Below, piece by piece: positions 2,263-55,697 of a stretch of 64,000 nt of DNA. The position numbers and the translations under genes were made by a program. The notes under the pieces were generated by a model. It was given only the letters and a program-made list of their open reading frames with translations, was not told the DNA's origin and did no database searches. This DNA comes from Bacteriovorax sp. BAL6_X (GTDB taxonomy: Bacteria > Bdellovibrionota > Bacteriovoracia > Bacteriovoracales > Bacteriovoracaceae): the NCBI RefSeq assembly GCF_000443995.1, contig NZ_AUMC01000009.1, forward strand, positions 1 through 64,000. Direction: 5' to 3'. The first letter of the stretch is position 1; each line of letters starts with the position of its first letter.

Positions 2263-2949
2263 TTAATTTTTTAAGTACTGTTCTTTATTAACTAGTAAAC
2301 CAAGATCAATCATTAGCTTATTAATATCTTTACTAGTTGAATCGTAATAACCTCTGATTTTACCATGTCCATCAACAAGAACAAGCTTTTCAGAGTGTGC
2401 AATATCAAACATTGTTACCGTTTCACCATTAACATTAGCTTCAACTTCTTGCATTTTCCCCATCTCAGTTCCAAAACCGTCTATGATTGTAGCTTGCATA
2501 TCTTCAGTCTTACCAGTTAAGAAAGTCCAAATATAAGGGTTCGCTTGATGTTTTCTAGCGTATTTAAATAGTGTTTTAGGATTGTCCGTTTCAGGATCCA
2601 CAGTAAATGAAACGAGAGCAACTTTTTGTCCTAATCCTCTAACTCTCTTTTGAATCTTTTGCATTTCGGCCGTAAGTCTAAGACAACTTGACGGACAATT
2701 TGTGAAAATGAAGTTCGCAATATAAACGCGACCTTCTAGTTCTTTGGACCCATATGTTTTCCCAAAACTATTAGTGAGTGAAAAGGCCGGCAGCTCTTTT
2801 ACGACAGGTAGTTCAGGAGGAAGTTCTCTGAAAACCGATTTTAAAAAAGGTACAGAAAAGAAATAAAGAACAAAAACTAACCAAAACGCCTTCTTTGAGA
2901 CAAGCGTTTCGATTAGTGAATTTGATCTTCTTATACCTAAACTAGTCAT
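2263..2949 (-). CDS. SCO1/SenC copper chaperone for the CuA site
   Basis: A 228-residue thioredoxin-like protein anchored by one N-terminal membrane span (about residues 21-37). The copper ligands of the SCO family are visible: Cys85 and Cys89 in TNCPSSC, and His185 in the block AHSEKLVLVD. These proteins deliver copper or reduce cysteines for the CuA centre of oxidase subunit II. Its place ten bases after the dihaem cytochrome c gene, in the same operon as coxB, fits that job. Confidence 0.93.
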   Translation of the reverse strand: MTSLGIRRSNSLIETLVSKKAFWLVFVLYFFSVPFLKSVFRELPPELPVVKELPAFSLTNSFGKTYGSKELEGRVYIANFIFTNCPSSCLRLTAEMQKIQKRVRGLGQKVALVSFTVDPETDNPKTLFKYARKHQANPYIWTFLTGKTEDMQATIIDGFGTEMGKMQEVEANVNGETVTMFDIAHSEKLVLVDGHGKIRGYYDSTSKDINKLMIDLGLLVNKEQYLKN

Positions 2950-2959
2950 TATTTAACTC

Positions 2960-3838
2960 TTATTGATTTTTAATACGATCCATTAACTCTTTACGAGCTT
3001 CTGTATCTTTTAAACTCTTTAGGTAGTCAACGTAGTGTGCAACGGCCCAGATTTGGTCATCAGTAAGTGTACCTTTCCAAGCGGCCATAGCTGTACCACC
3101 AACACCAGCTGCTAAACGAAGAGCAATCTCTTCAACTGTTTCAGCCGAACGAATTGTGTTCCAAGTAAAATCTGGTGGTAAAGACTTGAATCCCCACTCT
3201 GTTTCTTGAAGCTTAGACTGATAATCTGCATCAGAGAAATCACCTTCACTCATACCTGTAAGCTGAGCAAGTTCCATTTTTGGAACGTAAGCTCTGTGAC
3301 ATGACCAGCACATAGCATCTGAGTGGTAAACCTTCTTACCTTCTTCAATTGCAGACTGGATGTGAGCAACACCATATGGGTTTTTACCAAGAGTAATTTG
3401 CTTACCAAGCTCCTTATCCTTACCTTCCCAAACAGATGGAGCGAAAGTCTTGATGTATTGAACAACTTCAAACATTTGATCTTCAGTTAAGTCCCAAGGA
3501 AGCATTGCTGTTCCATGAAGACCTTTCTCAAGAATCTTGTATAGGTGCTTATCGTGTGGAAGAGTTCCTGCTTCAACCTCTCCAAATTTGAAGACACCTT
3601 TAGTAAAGTCACGTGGTGGTACTTTCATTGCCTTAGCTGCAACACCTTTACCGTCACCGTCAACACCGTGACAAGGCATGCAGTATTCAGTGTAAATTTG
3701 CTTCCCTCTATTAAGAACATCTTTCTCAACATAGAGGCCACCTGCGAATACTTTATCTTCTTTGAAGTGGTTTTCCTGGCAAGAAACCAAAGATAAAATT
3801 GTAAACATTGCTGTTAAAGTTAATGCCATTTTCTTCAT
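2960..3838 (-). CDS. Dihaem cytochrome c lipoprotein
   Basis: About 292 residues from the ATG at 3838, chosen because GAGG lies seven bases upstream; an earlier ATG at 3859 would overlap the end of coxC and has no ribosome site. A signal ending in the lipobox LVSC predicts a lipid anchor at Cys20. Two cytochrome c domains follow, with haem motifs CMPCH (residues 53-57) and CWSCH (177-181). It probably carries electrons to the CuA site of the oxidase in place of a fused subunit II cytochrome. It lies between coxC and SCO1. Confidence 0.9.
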   Translation of the reverse strand: MKKMALTLTAMFTILSLVSCQENHFKEDKVFAGGLYVEKDVLNRGKQIYTEYCMPCHGVDGDGKGVAAKAMKVPPRDFTKGVFKFGEVEAGTLPHDKHLYKILEKGLHGTAMLPWDLTEDQMFEVVQYIKTFAPSVWEGKDKELGKQITLGKNPYGVAHIQSAIEEGKKVYHSDAMCWSCHRAYVPKMELAQLTGMSEGDFSDADYQSKLQETEWGFKSLPPDFTWNTIRSAETVEEIALRLAAGVGGTAMAAWKGTLTDDQIWAVAHYVDYLKSLKDTEARKELMDRIKNQ

Positions 3839-44671: not shown

Positions 44672-46918
44672 CTAGGCCTTCTTCTTTACAGGGGCCGTAC
44701 CATTGTTTGGCCTAGGTCTGCCTTGAGGTTGACCAGGTCGTGGCCTTTGCTGGCCTTGTTGTGGAGGCCTTTTATTTTGAGGCGGTGGTGCTGGCTTCTT
44801 TGCAGGAGGCCCCCCACTTGCACCAGGAGCATTAGAAAATAACCCACGAGGGATGTTATAACCTTGCCTCTCAAGCGTTTCGATAAATTTAGGAATAAAA
44901 CCTGTTGCTTGGTGTGCTCCAATGATCTTTCCACTTTTATCAATATCTTTTTGCTGAAATAAGAAAATATCCTGCAGAGTTACAACCTCTCCTTGAATTC
45001 CTCCAATCTCAGTAATATGGGTAATTTTACGTGAACCATCATCAAGACGAGATGCTTGAATAATCAAGTGAACAGCATTTGCAATCATTTCTCGAATTGC
45101 TTTAGGAGTAAGACCTGCTCCCGCATATTGTACAAGAGTTTCAATACGTCCAATACACTCTCTTGGATTATTCGAGTGAACAGTCGTGAGTGAACCATCG
45201 TGACCTGTTCCCATTGCCTGTAGCATATCTAGTGTTTCACCACCACGACATTCGCCGACAACGATACGTTCAGGACGCATCCTTAAACACTGCTTAACGA
45301 GACAACGAATATCAATTTCACCATCACCTTCAAGAGATGGTGGACGCGTTTCAAGACGAACCACGTGTTCTTGAGGGAAACTAAGTTCGGCCGAGTCTTC
45401 ACAAGTAATGATACGCTCATTAGCTTGAATGAAACTTCCAAGAATATTTACGAGAGTTGTTTTCCCGGAACCGGTACCACCAGAGACAATAATATTTTTA
45501 TGTCCCTCAACTGCGATACGAAGAAAATCTGCCATATTCTGTGTGAATGATCCAAATTCAACAAGATGCTTATAAGTTAATCGCTCCTCAGGAAATTTAC
45601 GAATTGTGATACAACATCCATCAATAGCTGAAGGTGGGATAATTGCATGCACCCTTGATCCATCGTGAAGACGGGCATCTACATAAGGAGTTTTCTCATC
45701 AATTCGTCGACCAATTGGTGCAACGATTCTTTCAATTACATTTAAAACTTGTCTATCATTTGAAAACGTAACCTTAGAAAGTTTGACCTTTCCATCTTCT
45801 TCGTAATAAATCTTATTAGGGCCAACAACCATGATTTCAGAAATTGCCGAGTCCGCAAGAAGATCCTCCAAAGGCCCTAAGCCAAGGGCCTCATCAAGAA
45901 TTTCCTTAACGATACTATTCATATCGTCACGATTATTTAAAATACCTTTTGTATCTTCTTTCCCAAGAAGATCAATAACGACCTTCTTAGTTTTCTCTTT
46001 AAGAATAATTTTTGCTTTTGGATCGTTGTCATCATCTTTTGATAGATCCATCTCTTCAACAAGACCTTTATGAATCCTAAGTTTAAGGTCACGCCAACCA
46101 TTTGCAGCTGCACCAGTAGGTCGATCTTGCTTAGTACCAACTTCACTTGGTTTATTCAGCTTAGATAATTGACTTAATATCCCTTTCCCATTGATCGTTC
46201 GAACTAACTCTGTAACACCTTTTGCAAAAGCGCTATTTTTTGCGGCCAACATGACAGGCTTTTTCTGATTTATGGCCATTGCACATGTTTGCTCGTCTTT
46301 TAGAATTTGTGCGAGTACAGGACGTCCAACAGACTTTCCTGCAACATCAGCAGTAACAGGGTGTCCCTTTTGAGCTTGATTAAATACAAAATGAATCATC
46401 TCCTTAGGAAACATCATTGTAATAAGCTCTGAAACAAGACGCTTTGTTTGATTTAATGCCAGTAAATCTGGCGTAATTACAACTAAGATCATTGTGGAAT
46501 GTTCAAGGGCCTTTGCTGTAAGTTCTGTAATCTCTGTTCCCACATCGATAACAGTAAGTGGATACATACTCTTTACAGACTTTAAAACTTTACCAGCACC
46601 GTCAACACTCATTCCTTCAGTTGCGACAGGATCATTTGGTAGCCCTATATAGTGAACCCCGCTTGGGTGCATATTCACAAAAGGCTGAAATGTTCGAGGA
46701 TCAATATTTCCATTAAAATTAAATAGATCCTTTAGATTCTTATTTGTTTTAATACCAGTTAATAGATTTAAATCACCACTTGCTCTTTGATCAAAATCAA
46801 GAAGAAGTGTTTTAGAACGCTTTTCACCACTAAAGGCAAAAGCTAGGTTTGTGGCAACTTGAGACTTCCCAACACCGCCTTTACCACCAATAACTGTTAT
46901 AATATGACCTTCGGCCAC
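44672..46918 (-). CDS. Fused TadZ-TadA (CpaE-CpaF) ATPase of the Tad pilus
   Basis: 748 residues starting at GTG 46918 with GAGGGGG upstream and overlapping the secretin stop (TAGTG). Residues 1-250 are a MinD/ParA-like TadZ with deviant Walker A GGKGGVGKS (11-19); it lacks the receiver domain of classic CpaE. Residues 320-690 are the secretion ATPase TadA with Walker A GGTGSGKTT (480-488) and the Asp/His-box region VVGECRGGETLDMLQAMGTGH. A Pro/Gln/Arg-rich tail (about 700-748) follows. TadZ places the pilus machine and TadA powers it, so the fusion ties both together. Confidence 0.93.
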   Translation of the reverse strand: MAEGHIITVIGGKGGVGKSQVATNLAFAFSGEKRSKTLLLDFDQRASGDLNLLTGIKTNKNLKDLFNFNGNIDPRTFQPFVNMHPSGVHYIGLPNDPVATEGMSVDGAGKVLKSVKSMYPLTVIDVGTEITELTAKALEHSTMILVVITPDLLALNQTKRLVSELITMMFPKEMIHFVFNQAQKGHPVTADVAGKSVGRPVLAQILKDEQTCAMAINQKKPVMLAAKNSAFAKGVTELVRTINGKGILSQLSKLNKPSEVGTKQDRPTGAAANGWRDLKLRIHKGLVEEMDLSKDDDNDPKAKIILKEKTKKVVIDLLGKEDTKGILNNRDDMNSIVKEILDEALGLGPLEDLLADSAISEIMVVGPNKIYYEEDGKVKLSKVTFSNDRQVLNVIERIVAPIGRRIDEKTPYVDARLHDGSRVHAIIPPSAIDGCCITIRKFPEERLTYKHLVEFGSFTQNMADFLRIAVEGHKNIIVSGGTGSGKTTLVNILGSFIQANERIITCEDSAELSFPQEHVVRLETRPPSLEGDGEIDIRCLVKQCLRMRPERIVVGECRGGETLDMLQAMGTGHDGSLTTVHSNNPRECIGRIETLVQYAGAGLTPKAIREMIANAVHLIIQASRLDDGSRKITHITEIGGIQGEVVTLQDIFLFQQKDIDKSGKIIGAHQATGFIPKFIETLERQGYNIPRGLFSNAPGASGGPPAKKPAPPPQNKRPPQQGQQRPRPGQPQGRPRPNNGTAPVKKKA

Positions 46919-48441
46919 TATGGCCCCCTCTTTCTAAATTTTCTCTTGATATCTTCAGTCCCTGTCGAAGCACTCTCAATAATTTCAGGTGTAATAAACA
47001 CAACAAATTGCTCTTTTGATTTTGAAACATCTTTGGAGCGTACAAATGAGAAAAGCGAGAAAACTTGTCCTTCCTCACTTCCATCACTACCTGTTGTCGA
47101 AACACCATCTGGTGGATCTTTATCATATTCTGTAGCCGTTTTATTAATCGAAATACCACCAACAACAGCAGACTCTCGTGACTTAACAATGATCTTTGTA
47201 TCAAGGTTATTAGTTTGTTTATCTGTTCCTTGAGAAGAAGATACTCCTAGAATTATATCAAGGTTAATTTTTTCTTCTTGTAGGATCTTTGGTGTTACAT
47301 CTAAGTTGAACCCAGCTTCAATTACTTTTGCTTGTTGAAATTCACCCGTTCCAACAGCAACGTTTCTCTCAGAACCTTTCGATAGCTTTGCCTTTTCACC
47401 ATCTTTAGTAATAACCATTCCGGACTGAACAATACGTGCATAGCCAGCTGCTTTTGCAGAACTGAGTTTAGGAAATAATTGAGAAATCGTTCCTCCAAAA
47501 TTCCCAGCTGATGATGTCGTAACCGTTCCACCATTTTCAGTTCTTCCGAAAACAATTTGTCCCCCAGTAGTACCAACACTTGGGTTCCACTTAAAACCAA
47601 AGACACGGTTATAGTCTTTAGATAATTCAACAAATTGTGCCGTAATTTTAATTAGCTTTGCGGCCTGCGGAGGCTGAGGTTTTCTATTGATTGCAAGAAA
47701 ATTTCTAATAATCTCACCCTTATCAAGTTGTTGAACAGAATCAGTCCTTCTTGCTAAACTTTGAATTCGATCAGGTAAGTATGTTGCTGCAATCTTAACA
47801 GCAAGATTACTCTCTTCTTCCGAATTCACAATCCCTTCTAGTAGATAAGAGTTATTAAAGAATCTAACAGTGACATCTTTTAAATTATTTCTTCTTAGAC
47901 CTTCTTGCATCTCTCGAGAAATAATTAGATAAGTTTGCGGAGAAACTTCGACGAGATTTTTCACATCAGGATAATCTTCTAAAACCTTTACGATTCGACC
48001 AATATCTCCAGGAACAATGATCTTTCCTTCAACAAATACTTTTCCACCTTTAAGGTTAATTTCTAAGCCTTCAATAGGGCCTAGTTGTTCTTTTATTTCC
48101 GCGATAAGTTTTGACTTCTCTGTGGCCGTAACTGTAACAAGGTAGCGTTTTTTGATGGCCCCTAGTCGATCACGAACAGTGACGGATGTAATCCCAGGTG
48201 CCTCACCTTTTAATACAAGCTCACTCGTTCCAGCTGCTGTATTTACGGGTTGTACTTTTAAAATTCTCTGATTTGCAATTTGTACACTTCGAGAAGTGAT
48301 CGTGAAATCGATTGGCAGTACCTTATCAATTCCAAGAACTACTTCAACTTTTTCTTCAGATACTCCAATACCAGAAGAGGCCTGCTGAGCGCTGGCCGTA
48401 AATGCAAATATGAATAGAGTTAAGTACGTTAAAATTTTCAT
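46918..48441 (-). CDS. cpaC: Tad pilus outer-membrane secretin (CpaC/RcpA)
   Basis: 507 residues with signal peptide (1-18). BON/N-terminal region (about 20-180), then the secretin domain with GFNLDVTPKILQEEKINLDI and the end block FVVFITPEII. It forms the outer-membrane ring for the Flp pilus. It overlaps cpaB by the TAATG junction. Confidence 0.94.
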   Translation of the reverse strand: MKILTYLTLFIFAFTASAQQASSGIGVSEEKVEVVLGIDKVLPIDFTITSRSVQIANQRILKVQPVNTAAGTSELVLKGEAPGITSVTVRDRLGAIKKRYLVTVTATEKSKLIAEIKEQLGPIEGLEINLKGGKVFVEGKIIVPGDIGRIVKVLEDYPDVKNLVEVSPQTYLIISREMQEGLRRNNLKDVTVRFFNNSYLLEGIVNSEEESNLAVKIAATYLPDRIQSLARRTDSVQQLDKGEIIRNFLAINRKPQPPQAAKLIKITAQFVELSKDYNRVFGFKWNPSVGTTGGQIVFGRTENGGTVTTSSAGNFGGTISQLFPKLSSAKAAGYARIVQSGMVITKDGEKAKLSKGSERNVAVGTGEFQQAKVIEAGFNLDVTPKILQEEKINLDIILGVSSSQGTDKQTNNLDTKIIVKSRESAVVGGISINKTATEYDKDPPDGVSTTGSDGSEEGQVFSLFSFVRSKDVSKSKEQFVVFITPEIIESASTGTEDIKRKFRKRGP

Positions 48442-49256
48442 TAATTCTTTTTCTTATACTTTTCGTTAAAGAAGATTCTCGCTTCGTTCTTATCTGAGTC
48501 TGAAAGAATATCGTAAAGTCTAGTTCCTTCAATCATTGCCTTCTCACCATCATTAATATTTCTTAGAGTCAAGATTGGTTTATTAGGTTGGAAGACATAT
48601 AGGTGTGCGATCTTTTGAGCTTGAAAAGGACTTAGCTCAAGTGTTACCGTCGTATAATTTGAGTAAGTGTTAAGCTTCATCTTTCTAACAACTTCTTCAG
48701 TTTTAACACCAATAAGAGGAATATTATTTGAAACACTCATTCCTGTTGAAAGAACACGCACGTCTTGAAGAATCGTAACAATTTTTTCTTGATCCTTTCT
48801 CGCTCCACCGGTGTAGTCAATAGGAGCAAGAACATCAACTCGATCTCCAGGACGAATTAGTTTACCAACAGAGCTTCTTTCATCAACTTGAAAAGCAATT
48901 GCTCGCATGCCAACAGTTACCTCTCTTGAAAGGCCTGTACTCTCTCCAGGGTAAGTTACACGAGGCTTTGTTATTTGCTCACCTTTTAGGATTGGAACTG
49001 TTGCAATTGTATTTTCAATTTCTTTAACTGTTTTAAAACTTCCAGGTGCTAGAAACTTTTGAGGAACTGTAATGATTGAAACCTTTGTTTCATCTAATAG
49101 ATCAAATTCTCGTATATCTTCTTTAGCAACAAGAACAGAACTCATCGTTCCATATTTTTTAATCAAAGCAGATTGTTGATCTTCGATATAAGTGTGGACC
49201 ATAAACATGGCAACACCTGCAATAATAAGGGCCAGCGTAAAAGCTCTAGTATTCAT
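48441..49256 (-). CDS. cpaB: Tad pilus assembly protein CpaB/RcpC
   Basis: 271 residues: N-terminal membrane anchor (about 5-22), SAF domain (about 45-110, FLAPGSF), and the RcpC region with VGMRAIAFQVDERSSVGKLIRPGDRV (in parts). Periplasmic partner of the secretin. AGGATG lies upstream. Confidence 0.93.
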   Translation of the reverse strand: MNTRAFTLALIIAGVAMFMVHTYIEDQQSALIKKYGTMSSVLVAKEDIREFDLLDETKVSIITVPQKFLAPGSFKTVKEIENTIATVPILKGEQITKPRVTYPGESTGLSREVTVGMRAIAFQVDERSSVGKLIRPGDRVDVLAPIDYTGGARKDQEKIVTILQDVRVLSTGMSVSNNIPLIGVKTEEVVRKMKLNTYSNYTTVTLELSPFQAQKIAHLYVFQPNKPILTLRNINDGEKAMIEGTRLYDILSDSDKNEARIFFNEKYKKKN

Positions 49257-49339
49257 AAAACATCCTGTTTTACTTTGTTAAGTAATCAATTAATATTTTA
49301 ACAAAAAACAAGCATTTAGTTGCAATGAGGCATTTTTGG

Positions 49340-49900
49340 CTACTTATAGCTACAAGAAGTTACCGGTGAAAGAATGGTGGCGTCATTGGCCCTAAATAAA
49401 ACATCACCTGGTTTAGTGAAGGTTTCACCACAGACACCAAAAATTGTGAACACTTTAATACAACTAGTATCTTCAGGATCTCCCGCCTCTTCACAATTTT
49501 CTTCTTCAGCGGGTGCCCATGGTAAACTAGGAATTTTAAAAGTTGACGAAATCGGTGTACTATTGGATTGTAAAGTTTTATTCCAACCAATCATAAAGCC
49601 TCCAATCTCACTAAAAGTTCCACCTAAGCTTTTGATATCATTCGCACCAATACCATCAGAATTCCCTTTTAAAATAAAGAATGTATAAGTTCGAGTTGCT
49701 TTATTTTGATTGATTGATGCATTGATTGAGTTTCCTACCGTGATGAGCATCACAACCATGTAAAGAAGTATTGGAATAAAGATCATAGCCTCAAACAAGG
49801 CCTGACCTTCTTCATTTTTAAAAATGGCTTTTTTCTGACTAGGATTCAATCTAACATCCATTATCATAAATTGTTGAGTTCGTACTTGAACAATTTCCAT
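49340..49900 (-). CDS. Tad minor pseudopilin (TadE/TadF-like)
   Basis: 186 residues or fewer: the ATG at 49900 lies inside the previous gene, and ATG 49867 or 49861 are equally possible since no ribosome site decides. The class IVb prepilin junction EEG/QALFEAMIFIP is at about residues 31-42, with Glu at +5, followed by a hydrophobic helix and a globular part with several Cys. It should be a minor subunit of the Flp pilus. Confidence 0.8.
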   Translation of the reverse strand: MEIVQVRTQQFMIMDVRLNPSQKKAIFKNEEGQALFEAMIFIPILLYMVVMLITVGNSINASINQNKATRTYTFFILKGNSDGIGANDIKSLGGTFSEIGGFMIGWNKTLQSNSTPISSTFKIPSLPWAPAEEENCEEAGDPEDTSCIKVFTIFGVCGETFTKPGDVLFRANDATILSPVTSCSYK

Positions 49901-50378
49901 TTCCTAGATCTGTCGCAACTTCAGAAAAAGCACGACAAACCTGAGCAAGGCACTCCCTTATTGTTGGTTCTTTACCAAGAAAGGATTCAATTCTAAAATC
50001 CAAATCAATGTCTCCTGTTAATACCTTCATAACTGAAAACTTAGTTTTATAATCTAAGTAAGTACCACTTAGGAACCATTGATTCGTTGATTTTGAATTA
50101 AACTTAATTTGGCAGTCAGTACCACAATTAACCATATTATAAGAGTTAAAGACTGTGGTTGCATTTTGACGGGCCAGAGAATCATTTGGTATCTTATTAT
50201 CTGCAACGAGATATGCCCTTGAGGCCATGAAATTTGCATATTGTAGTAAGTATGTATTTGTGTAGTTAATTGCAATCTTCGCAAAGACAAAGAAGAAGGC
50301 GATAACAAAGGTAAAAGTCGATAAGAACTCAATTGTCGATTGACCTCTTTGATTTTTAATATTTTTATGGAACTTCAT
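49851..50378 (-). CDS. Tad minor pseudopilin (TadE-like)
   Basis: 175 residues. The prepilin cut site QRG/QSTIEFLSTF with Glu at +5 is at about residues 10-20, followed by a hydrophobic helix and a mature part with eight cysteines. It overlaps the neighbours at both ends (14 bases at the start; up to 50 at the end), showing tight coupling. Confidence 0.82.
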   Translation of the reverse strand: MKFHKNIKNQRGQSTIEFLSTFTFVIAFFFVFAKIAINYTNTYLLQYANFMASRAYLVADNKIPNDSLARQNATTVFNSYNMVNCGTDCQIKFNSKSTNQWFLSGTYLDYKTKFSVMKVLTGDIDLDFRIESFLGKEPTIRECLAQVCRAFSEVATDLGNGNCSSTNSTIYDNGC

Positions 50379-50694
50379 CGTAAACCCCTACTGGAGAGAA
50401 GAAGTGAGATCTTCCTTCATCATTATTATAATATAGTGGATGAACAGGATTACCGTAAGTTTTTCCATATGTATCAACACTTCCCTTATCACCATAACGA
50501 GCTGAGTATTCCATCGAACGGGCCAATGTCCCAAACATCCCTTCACCAATCATATCTTGAAAGCCTTTACTTTTAAAAACAAGCATTGCAAAAGATGTAA
50601 CGACAACAAAGAGTAAAATGTACTCAACTGTTGACTGTCCTCCTTGGCCTAAAAAAATATATGTTTTTTTATTTTCCATCCTAGAAATATCCAT
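50365..50694 (-). CDS. Flp/TadE-like prepilin
   Basis: 109 residues from ATG 50694 (ATG 50679 is possible). The cut site GQGG/QSTVEYILLF, with Glu at +5, lies near residue 19, followed by a hydrophobic helix and a mature tail of Tyr/Gly-rich sequence (about 45 residues). The start overlaps the peptidase gene by 46 bases. It is larger than Flp pilin and could be a minor pilin. Confidence 0.78.
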   Translation of the reverse strand: MDISRMENKKTYIFLGQGGQSTVEYILLFVVVTSFAMLVFKSKGFQDMIGEGMFGTLARSMEYSARYGDKGSVDTYGKTYGNPVHPLYYNNDEGRSHFFSPVGVYDEVP

Positions 50695-51155
50695 GAAATA
50701 AGTATAACAGGGGCAAATGCAAATTTCTTCCCAAAAATCTTTTTAATCTGAACAACATTACCTTCTTTAAAAGCCTGAATAATAAACTCAAGATTTTTCA
50801 AAATATTTGTGATGAAGACAGAAAGTCCAACAATGACTGTAACAACAGAAAGTGAAACCAGGGCCTGATCCTGATGAGCAACTGGAATTAAAAGAAATAA
50901 ACTTGCTAGGTATTTCGAATCCCCACCTCCCATTATTTTTAAGATGAATAACAAAAAGCCCGCGAGAAATATCCCCAACGGATAAAGAAGTGTCTCAATT
51001 CCAATAATGTAGTTATTTGGGAAAAAGAAAACGAGAACAAGAAATAAAAAAATATTTCCAATGGACCACACATTTGCAATCTTACGTGACTGGATATCGA
51101 TATACGATACGTACAACAATTGGATAAAGATAAAAACATAGACACTAACTGGCAC
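50649..51155 (-). CDS. cpaA: Prepilin peptidase, A24 family (TadV/CpaA)
   Basis: 168 residues, a short peptidase with five or six spans and only the catalytic domain. Active-site Asp residues lie in YIDIQSRKI (about residue 20) and in MGGGDSKYLA (about 79). It cuts the G/Q-x-x-x-E leader of the five prepilins encoded here. Confidence 0.93.
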   Translation of the reverse strand: MPVSVYVFIFIQLLYVSYIDIQSRKIANVWSIGNIFLFLVLVFFFPNNYIIGIETLLYPLGIFLAGFLLFILKIMGGGDSKYLASLFLLIPVAHQDQALVSLSVVTVIVGLSVFITNILKNLEFIIQAFKEGNVVQIKKIFGKKFAFAPVILISWIFLGWKIKKHIFF

Positions 51156-51161
51156 TCAAAC

Positions 51162-51374
51162 CTACCTATCTTGGTTTACATATGGTGAATGCCAACATCC
51201 TCTCGGACATGAGCCAGTTGCAAGCTCTTGCGATAAATGGAATGCAAAGCTTTTAAAAAAGCCTGTTGTATAGACTCCTATTCCCCTTGCCATAGCAATG
51301 GAAATACCGGCGAAGAACGCTAGGATAAATATATACTCTATTAAAGCCTGACCGCTTTGAGACTGACGTGACAT
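51162..51374 (-). CDS. Second Flp-like prepilin
   Basis: 70 residues. The cut site SG/QALIEYIFIL with Glu at +5 lies at residues 7-18; then a hydrophobic helix and a short tail with SCPRGCW (two cysteines). It precedes the peptidase by six bases. Probably a minor pilin. Confidence 0.8.
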   Translation of the reverse strand: MSRQSQSGQALIEYIFILAFFAGISIAMARGIGVYTTGFFKSFAFHLSQELATGSCPRGCWHSPYVNQDR

Positions 51375-51424
51375 ACTTAATATTCTACATTAAGTACGCA
51401 AAAGGTTTTGGTGAGAAAGTTTTT

Positions 51425-51481: not shown

Positions 51482-51670
51482 TTAGTTCCCTTGTAGTTCG
51501 CGAAGTAAGTTGTCTGTGTTCCCGAAAACACCATCTGTCAGAGTTGTAATACCTTCAGACGCCTTTTCCTTAAACTTCATAACAAGCATCGCTGCAACAG
51601 CAACAAGTAGAATATACTCTGTTGATGTTTGACCTTCTTCGTCTTTTAGAAACGCTAGTAAGGTTTTCAT
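51482..51670 (-). CDS. flp: Flp major pilin
   Basis: 62 residues, the classic size. Leader ends EEG and is cut before QTSTEYILLVAVAAMLVMKF (residues 14-33), with Glu at +5 and Tyr at +6, the Flp motif. A short polar tail follows. AAAGGAG precedes the ATG; a sigma-28-like promoter lies 60 bases upstream. First gene of the Tad locus and probably the most abundant product. Confidence 0.93.
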   Translation of the reverse strand: MKTLLAFLKDEEGQTSTEYILLVAVAAMLVMKFKEKASEGITTLTDGVFGNTDNLLRELQGN

Positions 51671-51690
51671 TTCATACTCCTTTCAATCAC

Positions 51691-51705
51691 CCCCAATCAG
51701 TGGGG
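51691..51705 (-). other. Short hairpin in the Flp pilin leader
   Basis: CCCCAATCAGTGGGG forms a four-base GC stem with a seven-base loop about 20 bases before the pilin ATG on the reverse strand. It could modulate translation or mRNA life; unproven. Confidence 0.3.
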
Positions 51706-51731
51706 TTGAAACTTAAATAACTACTTGAAAG

Positions 51732-51759
51732 TTTCGGCAATATCTGAGTAAAGCTTTAA
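51732..51759 (-). promoter_or_regulatory. Sigma-28-like promoter upstream of flp
   Basis: Reverse strand: TAAAGCTT (51759-51752), a 12-base spacer and GCCGAAAC (51739-51732), against the FliA consensus TAAAGTTT-N11-GCCGATAA. Spacer is one base longer than usual. It lies 62 bases before the pilin start. Confidence 0.5.
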
Positions 51760-51869
51760 CTTTTCTTAAAAATATTTTAACACTTTGCAGAAACGACACA
51801 AAGAAAACAGCTATTTGTTCATAAATACATGTAATTACTACCGTCAAGTACTTTTAATTATGCCTATTA

Positions 51870-51899
51870 TTGTTGCCGTTTGCGCTTTTCGGGTATAAT
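51870..51899 (+). promoter_or_regulatory. Promoter of 6S RNA
   Basis: -10 TATAAT (51894-51899) is perfect; -35 TTGTTG (51870-51875) with an 18-base spacer. It places the start at about 51905, right at the closing stem of the 6S RNA. Confidence 0.65.
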
Positions 51900-51903
51900 T
51901 TAT

Positions 51904-52078
51904 GAGTGAGCTAGATGGGCACTAAATAAAGTTGTTTCGCCCTACAAAGCTTAGAAAGGAAGTGGTCACTGGTCACGGTGAGCAGGCCCATGAATCAGTG
52001 GGAAGCCTAAAGTGATTATCACTACATCCACCTGTCGTACGACGGGCGGAAACTTTCATCGCTCATCTAGCTCATTCA
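51904..52078 (+). ncRNA. ssrS: 6S RNA
   Basis: About 175 bases. The ends form a 17-bp stem: 51904-51920 pairs with 52061-52077, all positions, two of them G-T. Inside are conserved 6S blocks in order: GGTGAGCA (51977-51984), GAAGCCTAAA (52002-52011), CATCCACCTGTCG with a short hairpin to CGACGGGCGG. These match E. coli 6S (GGTGAGCA, GAAGCCTTAAA, CATTCACCTTG). 6S RNA mimics an open promoter and binds sigma-70 RNA polymerase in stationary phase. It is preceded by a perfect -10. Confidence 0.85.
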
Positions 52079-52147
52079 CACTGCCCTTTCAATTGCGCAA
52101 TCCAAAAAATTCTTTTCAAATCATCAATATCTAGTAGAATTTAAGTT

Positions 52148-52678
52148 ATGGATATTACAAAATTTGAAAGAAACACGGAAGTATCAACAAAATGGATTGA
52201 AAATCTTGCTCTCGAAGAGATCAATATGGACGAAAGTGGTGTTGTTAGTTTTAACGACCATTTAAATCCGGCATTCCAACTTGAAGAATCTTCAATTAAC
52301 TTCATGAATAAACTCAGAGACCTTTTTGAGATTTATGTCCATAAATTTAATGAATACCGCGGCGATAATAATACGATCAAGATTTTCAAAATCGCTAATA
52401 CGATCAATGACTTTATGATCTATCGCAACTCACTTCGTCTTATTTTTGCAAGAAAGTCTGATGATCTTATTTCAATTGGCTTTTTGGCCAATGGAAAAGA
52501 TGTCTTTAGCGCAAGAACAAATGAATCACAAGTTCATGGTGGCGGTCACCTACATGAAATTCGTGCACATATTGGGCCATTTAACCAAATTACATGGCGC
52601 TTTGAAAATGAAGTTGTTGATTGTGATGCACTAGTAAGACACTACTTAAGCGAATTCATCAAGCTTTCGGCCCGTTAA
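52148..52678 (+). CDS. Conserved-looking protein of unknown function, downstream of 6S
   Basis: 176 residues, soluble, no signal or membrane span. A histidine-rich spot VHGGGHLHEIRAH lies near residue 130. No family recognised. It starts 70 bases after the 6S RNA and could be on its read-through transcript, as the gene after ssrS is in other bacteria. The stop is five bases from the stop of the converging gene. Confidence 0.6.
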   Translation: MDITKFERNTEVSTKWIENLALEEINMDESGVVSFNDHLNPAFQLEESSINFMNKLRDLFEIYVHKFNEYRGDNNTIKIFKIANTINDFMIYRNSLRLIFARKSDDLISIGFLANGKDVFSARTNESQVHGGGHLHEIRAHIGPFNQITWRFENEVVDCDALVRHYLSEFIKLSAR

Positions 52679-53756: not shown

Positions 53757-54590
53757 TTATCCGATTAGTTTTAATGCCACATTTGGCACTTGGTTTGCCT
53801 GTCCAAGAACAGAGGCTCCCGCCTGAATTAGAATGTTGTTCTTAGTCATGTCGGCAGTTTCTTTTGCCACATCAACATCTCTAATTCGCGATTTTGCTGC
53901 ACTTAAGTTCTCGTCGCTGACTCCCAAGTTATTGACTGTTGATGTAAGTCTATTCTGTAACGCACCCATATTAGCGCGATAACCGTTGACTGCGACCAAC
54001 GCATCGTCAAGTTTCTTAAGAACTGCTTGTGAGCCTTCTTTAGTAGCAACACTTTCTGAGGAAAGTCCCAGCGCTGTAATAGTTGCGTCAGACCCTGCTG
54101 CATCGTACGTGAGTCGATCAAGCATTGGATCATTATTGACTCCAACTTGAAATTCCAGCCTGCCTCCTGTCCCATCGAGCAGTTGTGTTCCATTAAAGTT
54201 TGAAGACTTCGCGATTCTATCGATCTCGTCTTTAAGCTGTTGAAACTCGATGTCTGAAAATGCCCTTTCAGTATCCCCAATCGTGTCAGAGGCAGTTTGT
54301 ACTGCAAGCTCTCTAAGACGAATGATGATATTTGAAACTTCATTTAATCCACCTTCTGCTACTTGGACAAGTGAGATTGCATCGTTTGCGTTTCTCTTTG
54401 CTTGCCTCATACCTCTGATCTGTGCTTTTAAGTTTTCACTAATTGCCAGTCCAGCGGCGTCATCTCCAGCTCTTGTAATTCGTTCACCTGAAGATAGTTT
54501 TCTTAAGTTGTCCCCAACTCTTTTATTTGTAAGTGACATTGCTCTTTGTGCTGCGATAGATGCCACGTTTGTATTAATTCTGATACCCAT
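53757..54590 (-). CDS. fliC: Flagellin (second copy)
   Basis: 277 residues, with the typical flagellin D0/D1 ends (MGIRINTNVASIAAQRAMS at the start and LIQAGASVLGQANQVPNVALKLI in parts at the end) and a short, variable middle. Filament subunit exported by the flagellar type III system. A six-codon upstream reading frame with a strong ribosome site ends two bases before its ATG. It lies after the other flagellin, in the same direction. Confidence 0.97.
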   Translation of the reverse strand: MGIRINTNVASIAAQRAMSLTNKRVGDNLRKLSSGERITRAGDDAAGLAISENLKAQIRGMRQAKRNANDAISLVQVAEGGLNEVSNIIIRLRELAVQTASDTIGDTERAFSDIEFQQLKDEIDRIAKSSNFNGTQLLDGTGGRLEFQVGVNNDPMLDRLTYDAAGSDATITALGLSSESVATKEGSQAVLKKLDDALVAVNGYRANMGALQNRLTSTVNNLGVSDENLSAAKSRIRDVDVAKETADMTKNNILIQAGASVLGQANQVPNVALKLIG

Positions 54591-54592
54591 GA

Positions 54593-54613
54593 TTAGTCTC
54601 CTTCAATCATCAT
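54593..54613 (-). CDS. Six-codon leader peptide before the flagellin
   Basis: Reverse strand: AGGAGG, five bases, then ATG ATG ATT GAA GGA GAC TAA, ending two bases before the flagellin ATG. The peptide would be MMIEGD. It may couple translation of the flagellin; it could also be chance, since the second GGAG (inside the peptide) also serves the flagellin ATG. Confidence 0.4.
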   Translation of the reverse strand: MMIEGD

Positions 54614-54632
54614 ATAAACCTCCTGTTTGATA

Positions 54633-54651
54633 ATTGAGCTTCCAGCTCAAT
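54633..54651 (-). other. Hairpin in the second flagellin leader
   Basis: ATTGAGCT (54633-54640), loop TCC, AGCTCAAT (54644-54651): a perfect eight-base stem about 20 bases upstream of the leader peptide. May stabilise the mRNA or regulate translation. Confidence 0.4.
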
Positions 54652-54848
54652 AAATTCGTTAATAATTAAATAATGCTTCTACGGATAAACCAATCATTCC
54701 TCTTTATATATTTTGCCAAGCAATTAAAGGTTGCAGTCTCTAATTGCCGTACATAACTTATCCAGTAGTATGCATATTATTGACTCCGTGTTCTTTACTC
54801 TAAAATTTTCTAAACAATGCTAGTGCCATCCGGCGCTGTCAGGGGTTA

Positions 54849-55697
54849 TTACCCTTGAGCAGCTGCCTGGATTAAGCTTAGTGCACTGTTTGTACTAGTG
54901 TTCGCTTGAGCAAGAACCGAAGTACCGGCAGTCATTAGAATATTTTGTTTTGTTAAGTTTGCAGTTTCTGCAGCTACGTCAGTGTCTCTTACACGAGAGT
55001 TTGCTGCACTTAAGTTTTCAATCGACGTTGCTATATTATTTACCGTTGACTGAAGTCTGTTTTGAAGGGCACCAAAGTCTGCTCTAATACCAGATACAGA
55101 GATAATTGCTTGATCAATTGATGATAGAGAGTTCTGTGCAGAAATCTTATCAGCAACTGATGCTAAGTTAAGACCAAGAGCTGCAACGTTTACGTCAGCT
55201 GATGATGCATCAAATGTTAAACGATCTGATATAGGGTCATTACGCGTACCGATTTGAATATCAAATACTGCACCTGTACCATTTAGTAGTGGTACTCTGT
55301 TGAATTCTGTTGAGTTAGCGATACGATCAACTTCAGAAGTTAATTGTTCGAACTCTACGTTTAGGAACTTTCTTTCAGTTGCTCCAATAGTATCCGAAGC
55401 TGCTTGTACTGATAGTTCTCTAAGTCTAATTAAGATATTTGAAACTTCACCTAAAGCACCTTCAGCAATTTGAACTAGTGAAATACCGTCTTCTGCGTTT
55501 CTTTCAGCTTGTCCAAGACCTCTAATTTGAGCCTTTAGGTTTTCAGAGATTGCTAGACCTGCGGCATCGTCACCCGCTCTGTTAATTCTCTGACCTGATG
55601 ATAATTTTTCTAGAGATTGCTGCATACCAAGACGTGTTCCACGTAGGTTTCTCTGTGCGTTTAGAGATGCAACGTTCGTGTTAATTCGTAGTCCCAT
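54849..55697 (-). CDS. fliC: Flagellin (first copy)
   Basis: 282 residues with the flagellin N- and C-terminal helices (LRINTNVASLNAQRNL; TAGTSVLAQANTSTNSALS) and a short middle. Close to, but clearly different from, the second copy, so the filament may contain both. AAGGAGG precedes the ATG and a sigma-28-type promoter lies 85-111 bases upstream. Confidence 0.97.
   Translation of the reverse strand: MGLRINTNVASLNAQRNLRGTRLGMQQSLEKLSSGQRINRAGDDAAGLAISENLKAQIRGLGQAERNAEDGISLVQIAEGALGEVSNILIRLRELSVQAASDTIGATERKFLNVEFEQLTSEVDRIANSTEFNRVPLLNGTGAVFDIQIGTRNDPISDRLTFDASSADVNVAALGLNLASVADKISAQNSLSSIDQAIISVSGIRADFGALQNRLQSTVNNIATSIENLSAANSRVRDTDVAAETANLTKQNILMTAGTSVLAQANTSTNSALSLIQAAAQG

Follow-up and report, generated by a model that had tools for sequence, protein, structure and literature searches.

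Does the gap between a Flp pilin-like gene and the next gene in Bacteriovorax sp. BAL6_X hold a gene for 6S RNA, and if so, how might this RNA act and to which of its neighbors is it tied? In other bacteria, 6S RNA is known to block the main RNA polymerase as growth declines. An initial annotation of the 64,000 nucleotides analyzed here (contig NZ_AUMC01000009.1; in the following called the window) had placed a 6S RNA gene at positions 51904-52078 and had suggested that in a predator it could control the switch between attack and growth phases.

Identification of the 6S RNA gene

The covariance search that had been asked for returned a plus-strand match of RF00013 (6S/SsrS) at 51905-52077, with 67.4 bits and an E-value of 3.8e-11 in the 64-kb window. 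The match comprises positions 1-187 of the 187 positions of the model and exceeds the gathering score of 46.4 bits. Each end of the gene had thus been placed correctly to within one base, and what else had been read from the letters holds as well: the 17-bp closing stem is found in the minimum-energy fold, the -10 box is a perfect TATAAT, and the gene lies between a Flp-like open frame on the minus strand and a gene on the plus strand coding for a protein of 176 amino acids (Table 1). The only other Rfam matches in the window are a fragment of 16S rRNA and a tRNA, both at its start, and a scan of the region 51500-52500 with Rfam at E-values up to 1 gave nothing besides the plus-strand 6S.

Table 1. 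Features of the 6S RNA locus, with positions counted from the first letter of the window
Feature	Position	Strand	Basis
6S / SsrS RNA	51905..52077	+	RF00013 67.4 bits; R1 151.3 bits
17-bp closing stem, 5' arm	51904..51920	+	minimum-energy fold; covariation
17-bp closing stem, 3' arm	52061..52077	+	minimum-energy fold; covariation
Central bubble, 5' side: CCCTAC (51940-51945) up to the apical arm	51940..51957	+	conservation
Apical arm with conserved GGTGAGCAGGCCC ... GGGAAGCCTAAAG blocks	51958..52029	+	Rfam alignment, minimum-energy fold, family structure
Small hairpin CCUGUC-GUAC-GACGGG, 3' side of central bubble	52031..52046	+	minimum-energy fold; helix 5
Predicted product RNA (pRNA) 5'-GUAGGGCGAAACAAC, starting opposite C51945	51931..51945	-	inferred from alignment
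6S -10 box TATAAT	51894..51899	+	sequence; six bases before A51905
Promoter-like site TTTTCA, 16 nt, TAGAAT, ending 7 nt before ATG	52113..52140	+	promoter scan
Divergent Flp-pilin-like open frame, start of Tad cluster	51485..51682	-	Pfam Flp1_like E 5.6e-05, below cut-off
176-aa 6S-adjacent protein, predicted frataxin-like core	52148..52678	+	open frame; AlphaFold

The RNA strand folds with a minimum free energy of -71.6 kcal/mol compared with a mean of -44.4 kcal/mol for shuffled sequences (z -6.1), and none of 200 shuffles was as good. As in the E. coli 6S RNA on which we based the comparison (RF00013), there is a closing stem, a central bubble, an apical arm with GGUGAGCA...GAAGCCU blocks and a small hairpin on the 3' side of the bubble, and the lengths are similar (about 173-184 nt). 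The sequence CCCTAC on the 5' side of the bubble is invariant in all 15 members of the family alignment and is present in 67 of 74 6S sequences.

This alignment consists of 15 Bacteriovoracaceae 6S sequences and has 38 consensus pairs, 18 of which are altered on both sides with pairing kept, a number that none of 500 shuffles attained. Paired cells amount to 93.9% versus 86.0% in the shuffles, the covariation score is 0.377 versus 0.230 (again reached by none of 500 shuffles), and when the partner is shifted by 1-3 columns pairing drops to only 38-51%. Within the same 15 sequences helices 2-4 of the apical arm are paired to 95.8-100% and the hairpin of the 3' bubble side, helix 5, in 91.7% of the cells. 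Eight of the ten modeled pairs of the closing stem are double-changed, and all ten are in a wider alignment of 78 rows. In this wider alignment, which was fitted to the model and therefore leans towards it, and in which row L068 is antisense and row L094 a fragment, 95.0% of the cells are paired and 28 of the 38 pairs are changed on both sides. The pattern of pairing and covariation is the trace that selection leaves on an RNA structure.

A family model, R1, which was built from the 15 sequences with the Bacteriovorax 6S among them, scores this RNA with 151.3 bits. On RF00013 the score is moderate, 67.4 bits versus 139.8 bits for E. coli 6S, and could on this account be that of a mere 6S-like relic or of some other structured RNA scoring by chance. 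However, the match is full-length, compensatory changes are found in all five helices, the promoter box is conserved and the region 51500-52500 holds no rival Rfam family, so that this explanation can practically be dismissed. Score, fold, covariation, the conserved promoter box, the single copy and the nearly phylum-wide presence all support the identification as 6S. We conclude that 51905-52077 is very probably the single 6S (SsrS) RNA gene of this Bacteriovoracaceae bacterium, about 173 nt long, and that its RNA would act by the known 6S mechanism. The long closing stem, the central bubble and the apical arm, which are shown by sequence, score and covariation together, would imitate an open promoter. 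In all this the RNA is an ordinary 6S, of a family that is already known and widespread and that a standard Rfam search finds.

We also considered an antisense RNA. The antisense matches of R1 in three loci (L068, L018 and L021) are weak, 22-31 bits versus 170-175 bits for the sense strand; they are what an RNA of nearly palindromic shape would be expected to give, and the candidate was rejected.

Promoter and ends of the RNA

The position of the TATAAT box puts the RNA start near A51905. By eye, an exact TATAAT directly precedes the RNA in 13 of the 15 family members, and it is found in 41 of the 73 6S loci for which the sequence before the RNA is long enough. A simple promoter scan detected no consensus -35 box at 16-18 nt from the -10 box; the 6S promoter is for this reason missing from the list of the scan, and it is the -10 box alone that supports it. 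On the 6S strand no clear intrinsic terminator was found.

Predicted product RNA and mechanism

Through the Rfam consensus C51945 is aligned with U44 of E. coli 6S. According to PMC8876501 the E. coli pRNA starts at U44, whereas the pRNA of B. subtilis 6S-1 starts at C40 with GTP as initiating nucleotide. With C51945 as the predicted first template base the pRNA would start with G and the release would track the GTP level: the pRNA is predicted to begin 5'-GUAGGGCGAAA opposite C51945, which would make initiation GTP-driven like that in B. subtilis and unlike the ATP-driven one of E. coli. The likeness to B. subtilis 6S-1 is taken from its published description. The template base at the predicted pRNA start is C in all 15 close relatives, in 72 of the 78 rows of the wider alignment and in 47 of the 55 rows of a phylum-wide set that includes two weak antisense rows; in some lineages it is T (6 of the 55 phylum rows). 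T51943 to C51945, which are unpaired, do not vary among the 15 sequences, as expected of a template under selection.

Taken together, the following course of events may be proposed. The RNA, some 173 nt long, would be read from its own housekeeping-type promoter. Once folded it would, by analogy with other 6S RNAs, mimic an open promoter and bind the housekeeping RNA polymerase holoenzyme as growth slows, and with the holoenzyme bound to 6S many promoters would be blocked. When nucleotides rise, the polymerase would use the 5' side of the bubble as template for a short pRNA, whereupon the complex would dissociate, the GTP level setting the release as in B. subtilis 6S-1 rather than as in E. 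coli 6S. A GTP-started pRNA, if it is made as predicted, would give a direct handle on the way in which such cells resume growth.

Distribution in the phylum Bdellovibrionota

The genome of the strain itself has one 6S copy. Of 290 genomes sampled across the phylum 258 have a match of RF00013, as have 47 of 58 relatives. Nine genomes of the family that were negative with RF00013 (G015, G018, G027, G029, G135, G186, G264, G266 and G295) were reread with R1 beside the gene of the 176-aa protein, and 6S turned up in every one; the copy of G264 is truncated where its contig ends, and G027 had shown a match below the cut-off in the RF00013 search of the 58 relatives. RF00013 thus misses 6S RNAs in the very family of Bacteriovorax that a family-specific model finds easily. 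On the other hand, a search with R1 through the whole of eight genomes without RF00013 match in the search of the 58 relatives, with 150 candidates scored per genome, gave no 6S, while the same search did find 6S in G002, a genome with an RF00013 match. Most of the eight are partial genomes, although the completeness ratings of G038 and G052 are 100% and 91%. 6S is nearly, not strictly, universal in the phylum.

An exact 45-base pattern had no match in named genomes. Relatives fetched by the 176-aa protein are labeled Bacteriovoracaceae, Halobacteriovoraceae, Bdellovibrionales and Oligoflexia, some metagenome records carrying the labels Delta-, Epsilon- or Proteobacteria, and the nearest named one among the best 80 of 94 is Bacteriovorax sp. 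BSW11_IV. Two genomes, G031 (on C7 and C76) and G284, have two 6S copies each; in G031 this may be due to contamination, as C76 is a contig of 6.9 kb.

A switch between attack and growth phases?

The idea that 6S is a dedicated attack/growth phase switch in this predator-related lineage draws on three points. The phylum, to which predators belong, has retained 6S in 258 of 290 genomes; release by a pRNA that begins with GTP would be well suited to the arrival of nucleotides from the prey; and in E. coli the 6S level rises as cells approach stationary phase (PMC2848244), a state resembling that of the non-growing attack cell. Yet 6S is normal in non-predators too, and published data on Bdellovibrio bacteriovorus HD100 do not lend weight to the idea. 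Table 2 of Karunker et al. 2013 (PMC3627812) gives eight small RNAs that are specific for the attack phase, and the 6S locus of HD100, which we find at 182914-183093 on the minus strand (genome G102), is absent from this table. The coordinates of G102 are comparable with those of the paper, since the c-di-GMP-I riboswitch falls within the merRNA coordinates given there. The screen as described in the paper covered only intergenic regions that were more than 4-fold up in the attack phase. The absence from the list thus does not favor an attack-phase-specific 6S, and a role in leaving the attack phase is still compatible with it. We therefore regard the dedicated phase switch as unlikely and retain the reading as an ordinary 6S RNA.

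The attack-phase RNA APsRNA5 of the same study (605441-605617) was considered as a 6S candidate and rejected; it has the right size, lies at another locus and has no Rfam match. A search of the open-licence literature for work on 6S RNA in Bdellovibrio, Bacteriovorax or predators at large brought up nothing to the point, as judged from the listings.

Linkage of 6S RNA and the 176-aa protein gene

The family of the 176-aa protein encoded downstream of 6S is present in 266 of the 290 genomes of the phylum, and what the present analysis adds is that this conserved orphan protein family is tied by position to 6S. A relative of the protein was found near the RNA in 35 of the 53 6S loci with flanks of up to 1.5 kb. 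As an independent, reverse test of the linkage, loci were retrieved by the 176-aa protein alone; 94 relatives were found and the best 80 were kept, and in 76 of these 80 named loci R1 detects 6S beside the gene. In L125 and L128 the RNA and the gene are on opposite strands; in all other loci with a match the RNA precedes the gene on the same strand. In the retrieved DNA of the remaining loci among the best 80 of 94 (L093, L105, L127 and L130) R1 finds no 6S; in L094 the 6S is a fragment at the contig end. Among the loci measured, six have a gap of more than 1 kb between 6S and the gene.

At the level of genomes, 6S and the 176-aa gene are within 800 nt in 78 of 93 genomes and in 11 of 18 families, and in 76 of the 78 close pairs the protein gene is downstream on the same strand. 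These 93 genomes are a non-random set, with 81 among the matches listed and 12 picked because the linkage seemed to be absent. The four Bdellovibrio-type genomes (f6) with both on one contig have them 240-436 kb apart, with about 404 kb in HD100, where the gene of the 176-aa homologue is at 587312-587818; with such distances the linkage cannot be obligatory. In the genomes examined from five other families (f2, f11, f14, f17 and f22) 6S and the gene are on different contigs. The link between RNA and protein gene is old, and a functional tie is only putative.

Some rearranged or duplicated loci may be mentioned here. In G003, a genome of the same genus (L138, about 2759-3446), the gene is inverted and convergent with 6S, only a few bases away. 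In G002, likewise of the same genus (L021, C153 22824-25621), the two are separated by an insert of about 2.1 kb. Each of the two 6S copies of G031 has its own 176-aa-type gene.

A protein gene directly downstream of 6S that is kept over deep time has precedent in the ssrS-ygfA/fau and ZapA-ssrS-EVE arrays of beta- and gamma-proteobacteria (PMC7641849), where the downstream genes are ygfA/fau and EVE (PMC7641849, PMC2848244), and according to PMC2848244 it was not known what the ssrS-ygfA arrangement means for function. The downstream gene of Bacteriovorax is, however, unrelated. In E. coli ssrS is flanked by zapA and the gene for 5-formyltetrahydrofolate cyclo-ligase, whereas the Bacteriovorax 6S lies between the Flp pilin-like and the 176-aa genes. 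The latter does not code for the cyclo-ligase, its protein being without Pfam match, and the cyclo-ligase (PF01812) sits elsewhere in the genome of the strain (G000 C3 71889-72422).

Promoter of the 176-aa protein gene

The promoter scan gave a promoter-like site immediately upstream of the gene (Table 1), in a region with no more promoter-like sites than in shuffles. Across the relatives the pattern TTGAC[AGT]-N16-18-nAnnnT-N4-8-start recurs at the same place in 50 of 63 loci, while 0.33 are expected from shuffles, and in 42 of the 50 promoter-bearing loci the spacings are 17 and 6 nt. When a slightly altered pattern was applied to the 56 open frames of at least 120 amino acids in the window, a comparable arrangement preceded one of them. 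The placement of the promoter in the relatives would put the mRNA start at the start codon and thus give a leaderless message. The 176-aa gene is a long-standing neighbor of 6S with its own conserved promoter and apparently a leaderless mRNA.

Fold of the 176-aa protein

No Pfam or NCBIfam model matched the protein of the window, and a Pfam scan of 31 family members gave only weak matches of single members, none of them to frataxin. Sequence relatives of the family were found neither in the PDB nor, to any note, in PHROGs. AlphaFold models were made for two ends of the family, the protein of the window (mean pLDDT 80.6) and the HD100 homologue (89.1), and each consists of two helices plus a sheet of six strands and a C-terminal helix. 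No significant match came from Foldseek on either model, the best E-values being 0.2 and 0.3. With a second aligner the top chains on both models were of the frataxin fold. For the model of the window protein these were Nqo15, which we take to have a frataxin-like fold (2fug_7, Z 10.3, rmsd 2.5, 104 residues aligned), and CyaY (1ew4, Z 8.9, rmsd 3.2, 99 aligned). The model of the HD100 homologue gave Nqo15 (Z 10.0, rmsd 2.6, 106 aligned), CyaY 4jpd (Z 9.3, 3.3, 100), a frataxin-like protein of Chaetomium (Z 9.0, 3.1, 102) and CyaY 4lp1 (Z 8.6, 3.2, 97). Chains of Mediator Med17 and CapZ follow close behind, and the frataxin likeness is for this reason a lead on the fold and not on the function. 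The core of the 176-aa protein is predicted to resemble the frataxin fold: the helix-sheet-helix core of the models is like that of frataxin/CyaY and Nqo15, but the identity is 7-14% and the protein has an extra N-terminal helix. A frataxin proper (PF01491) was not found in the genome of the strain. The neighbors of the homologue in HD100, a DUF502 protein, a DUF2802 protein and a beta-propeller-like protein, suggest no clear function.

Are 6S RNA and the 176-aa protein functional partners?

The protein could bind 6S or the polymerase, or it could control the turnover of 6S, and 6S would then have a partner of a new kind, in a phylum with predators among its members. Such a partnership would account for the RNA being found beside the gene in 76 of the 80 loci fetched by the protein (best 80 of 94), for the distance of at most 800 nt in 78 of 93 genomes and 11 of 18 families, for an order that outlasts local changes such as the inversion in G003 and the insertion in G002, and for the separate protein genes of the two 6S copies in G031. 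It fits less well with the 240-436 kb between the two in Bdellovibrio-type genomes and with their placement on different contigs in f2, f11, f14, f17 and f22. Moreover, the neighbors on both sides are also conserved in the family, and the linkage may be part of a general conservation of gene order; the 176-aa gene has its own promoter, and a frataxin-like fold says nothing of RNA binding. We consider a functional partnership doubtful. A more specific proposal, in which the frataxin-fold family works with 6S, for example as a metabolite sensor on the 6S-bound polymerase, and in which 6S and the leaderless mRNA together form a growth-state switch answering to GTP, seems to us very unlikely.

Surroundings of the locus

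Conservation of the other neighbors was counted within the family only. Among the best 80 of 94 loci, a minus-strand Flp-like relative lies upstream of 6S in 63 of the 80 named loci and an RmlD-like gene is conserved in 69. Like its Flp1_like match (Table 1), the Flp_Fap match of the frame at 51485-51682 is below the Pfam cut-off. Further upstream of 6S a Tad/Flp pilus cluster occupies 44672-51389 on the minus strand, with a CpaF-like ATPase joined to a MinD/ParA-like part, a secretin-like protein, a CpaB-like protein, a prepilin peptidase and small Flp-like frames; apart from the Pfam matches these names were given by reading the translations. On the other side of the locus, two flagellin-like genes, recognized by eye from their translations, lie side by side at 53757-55697 on the minus strand.
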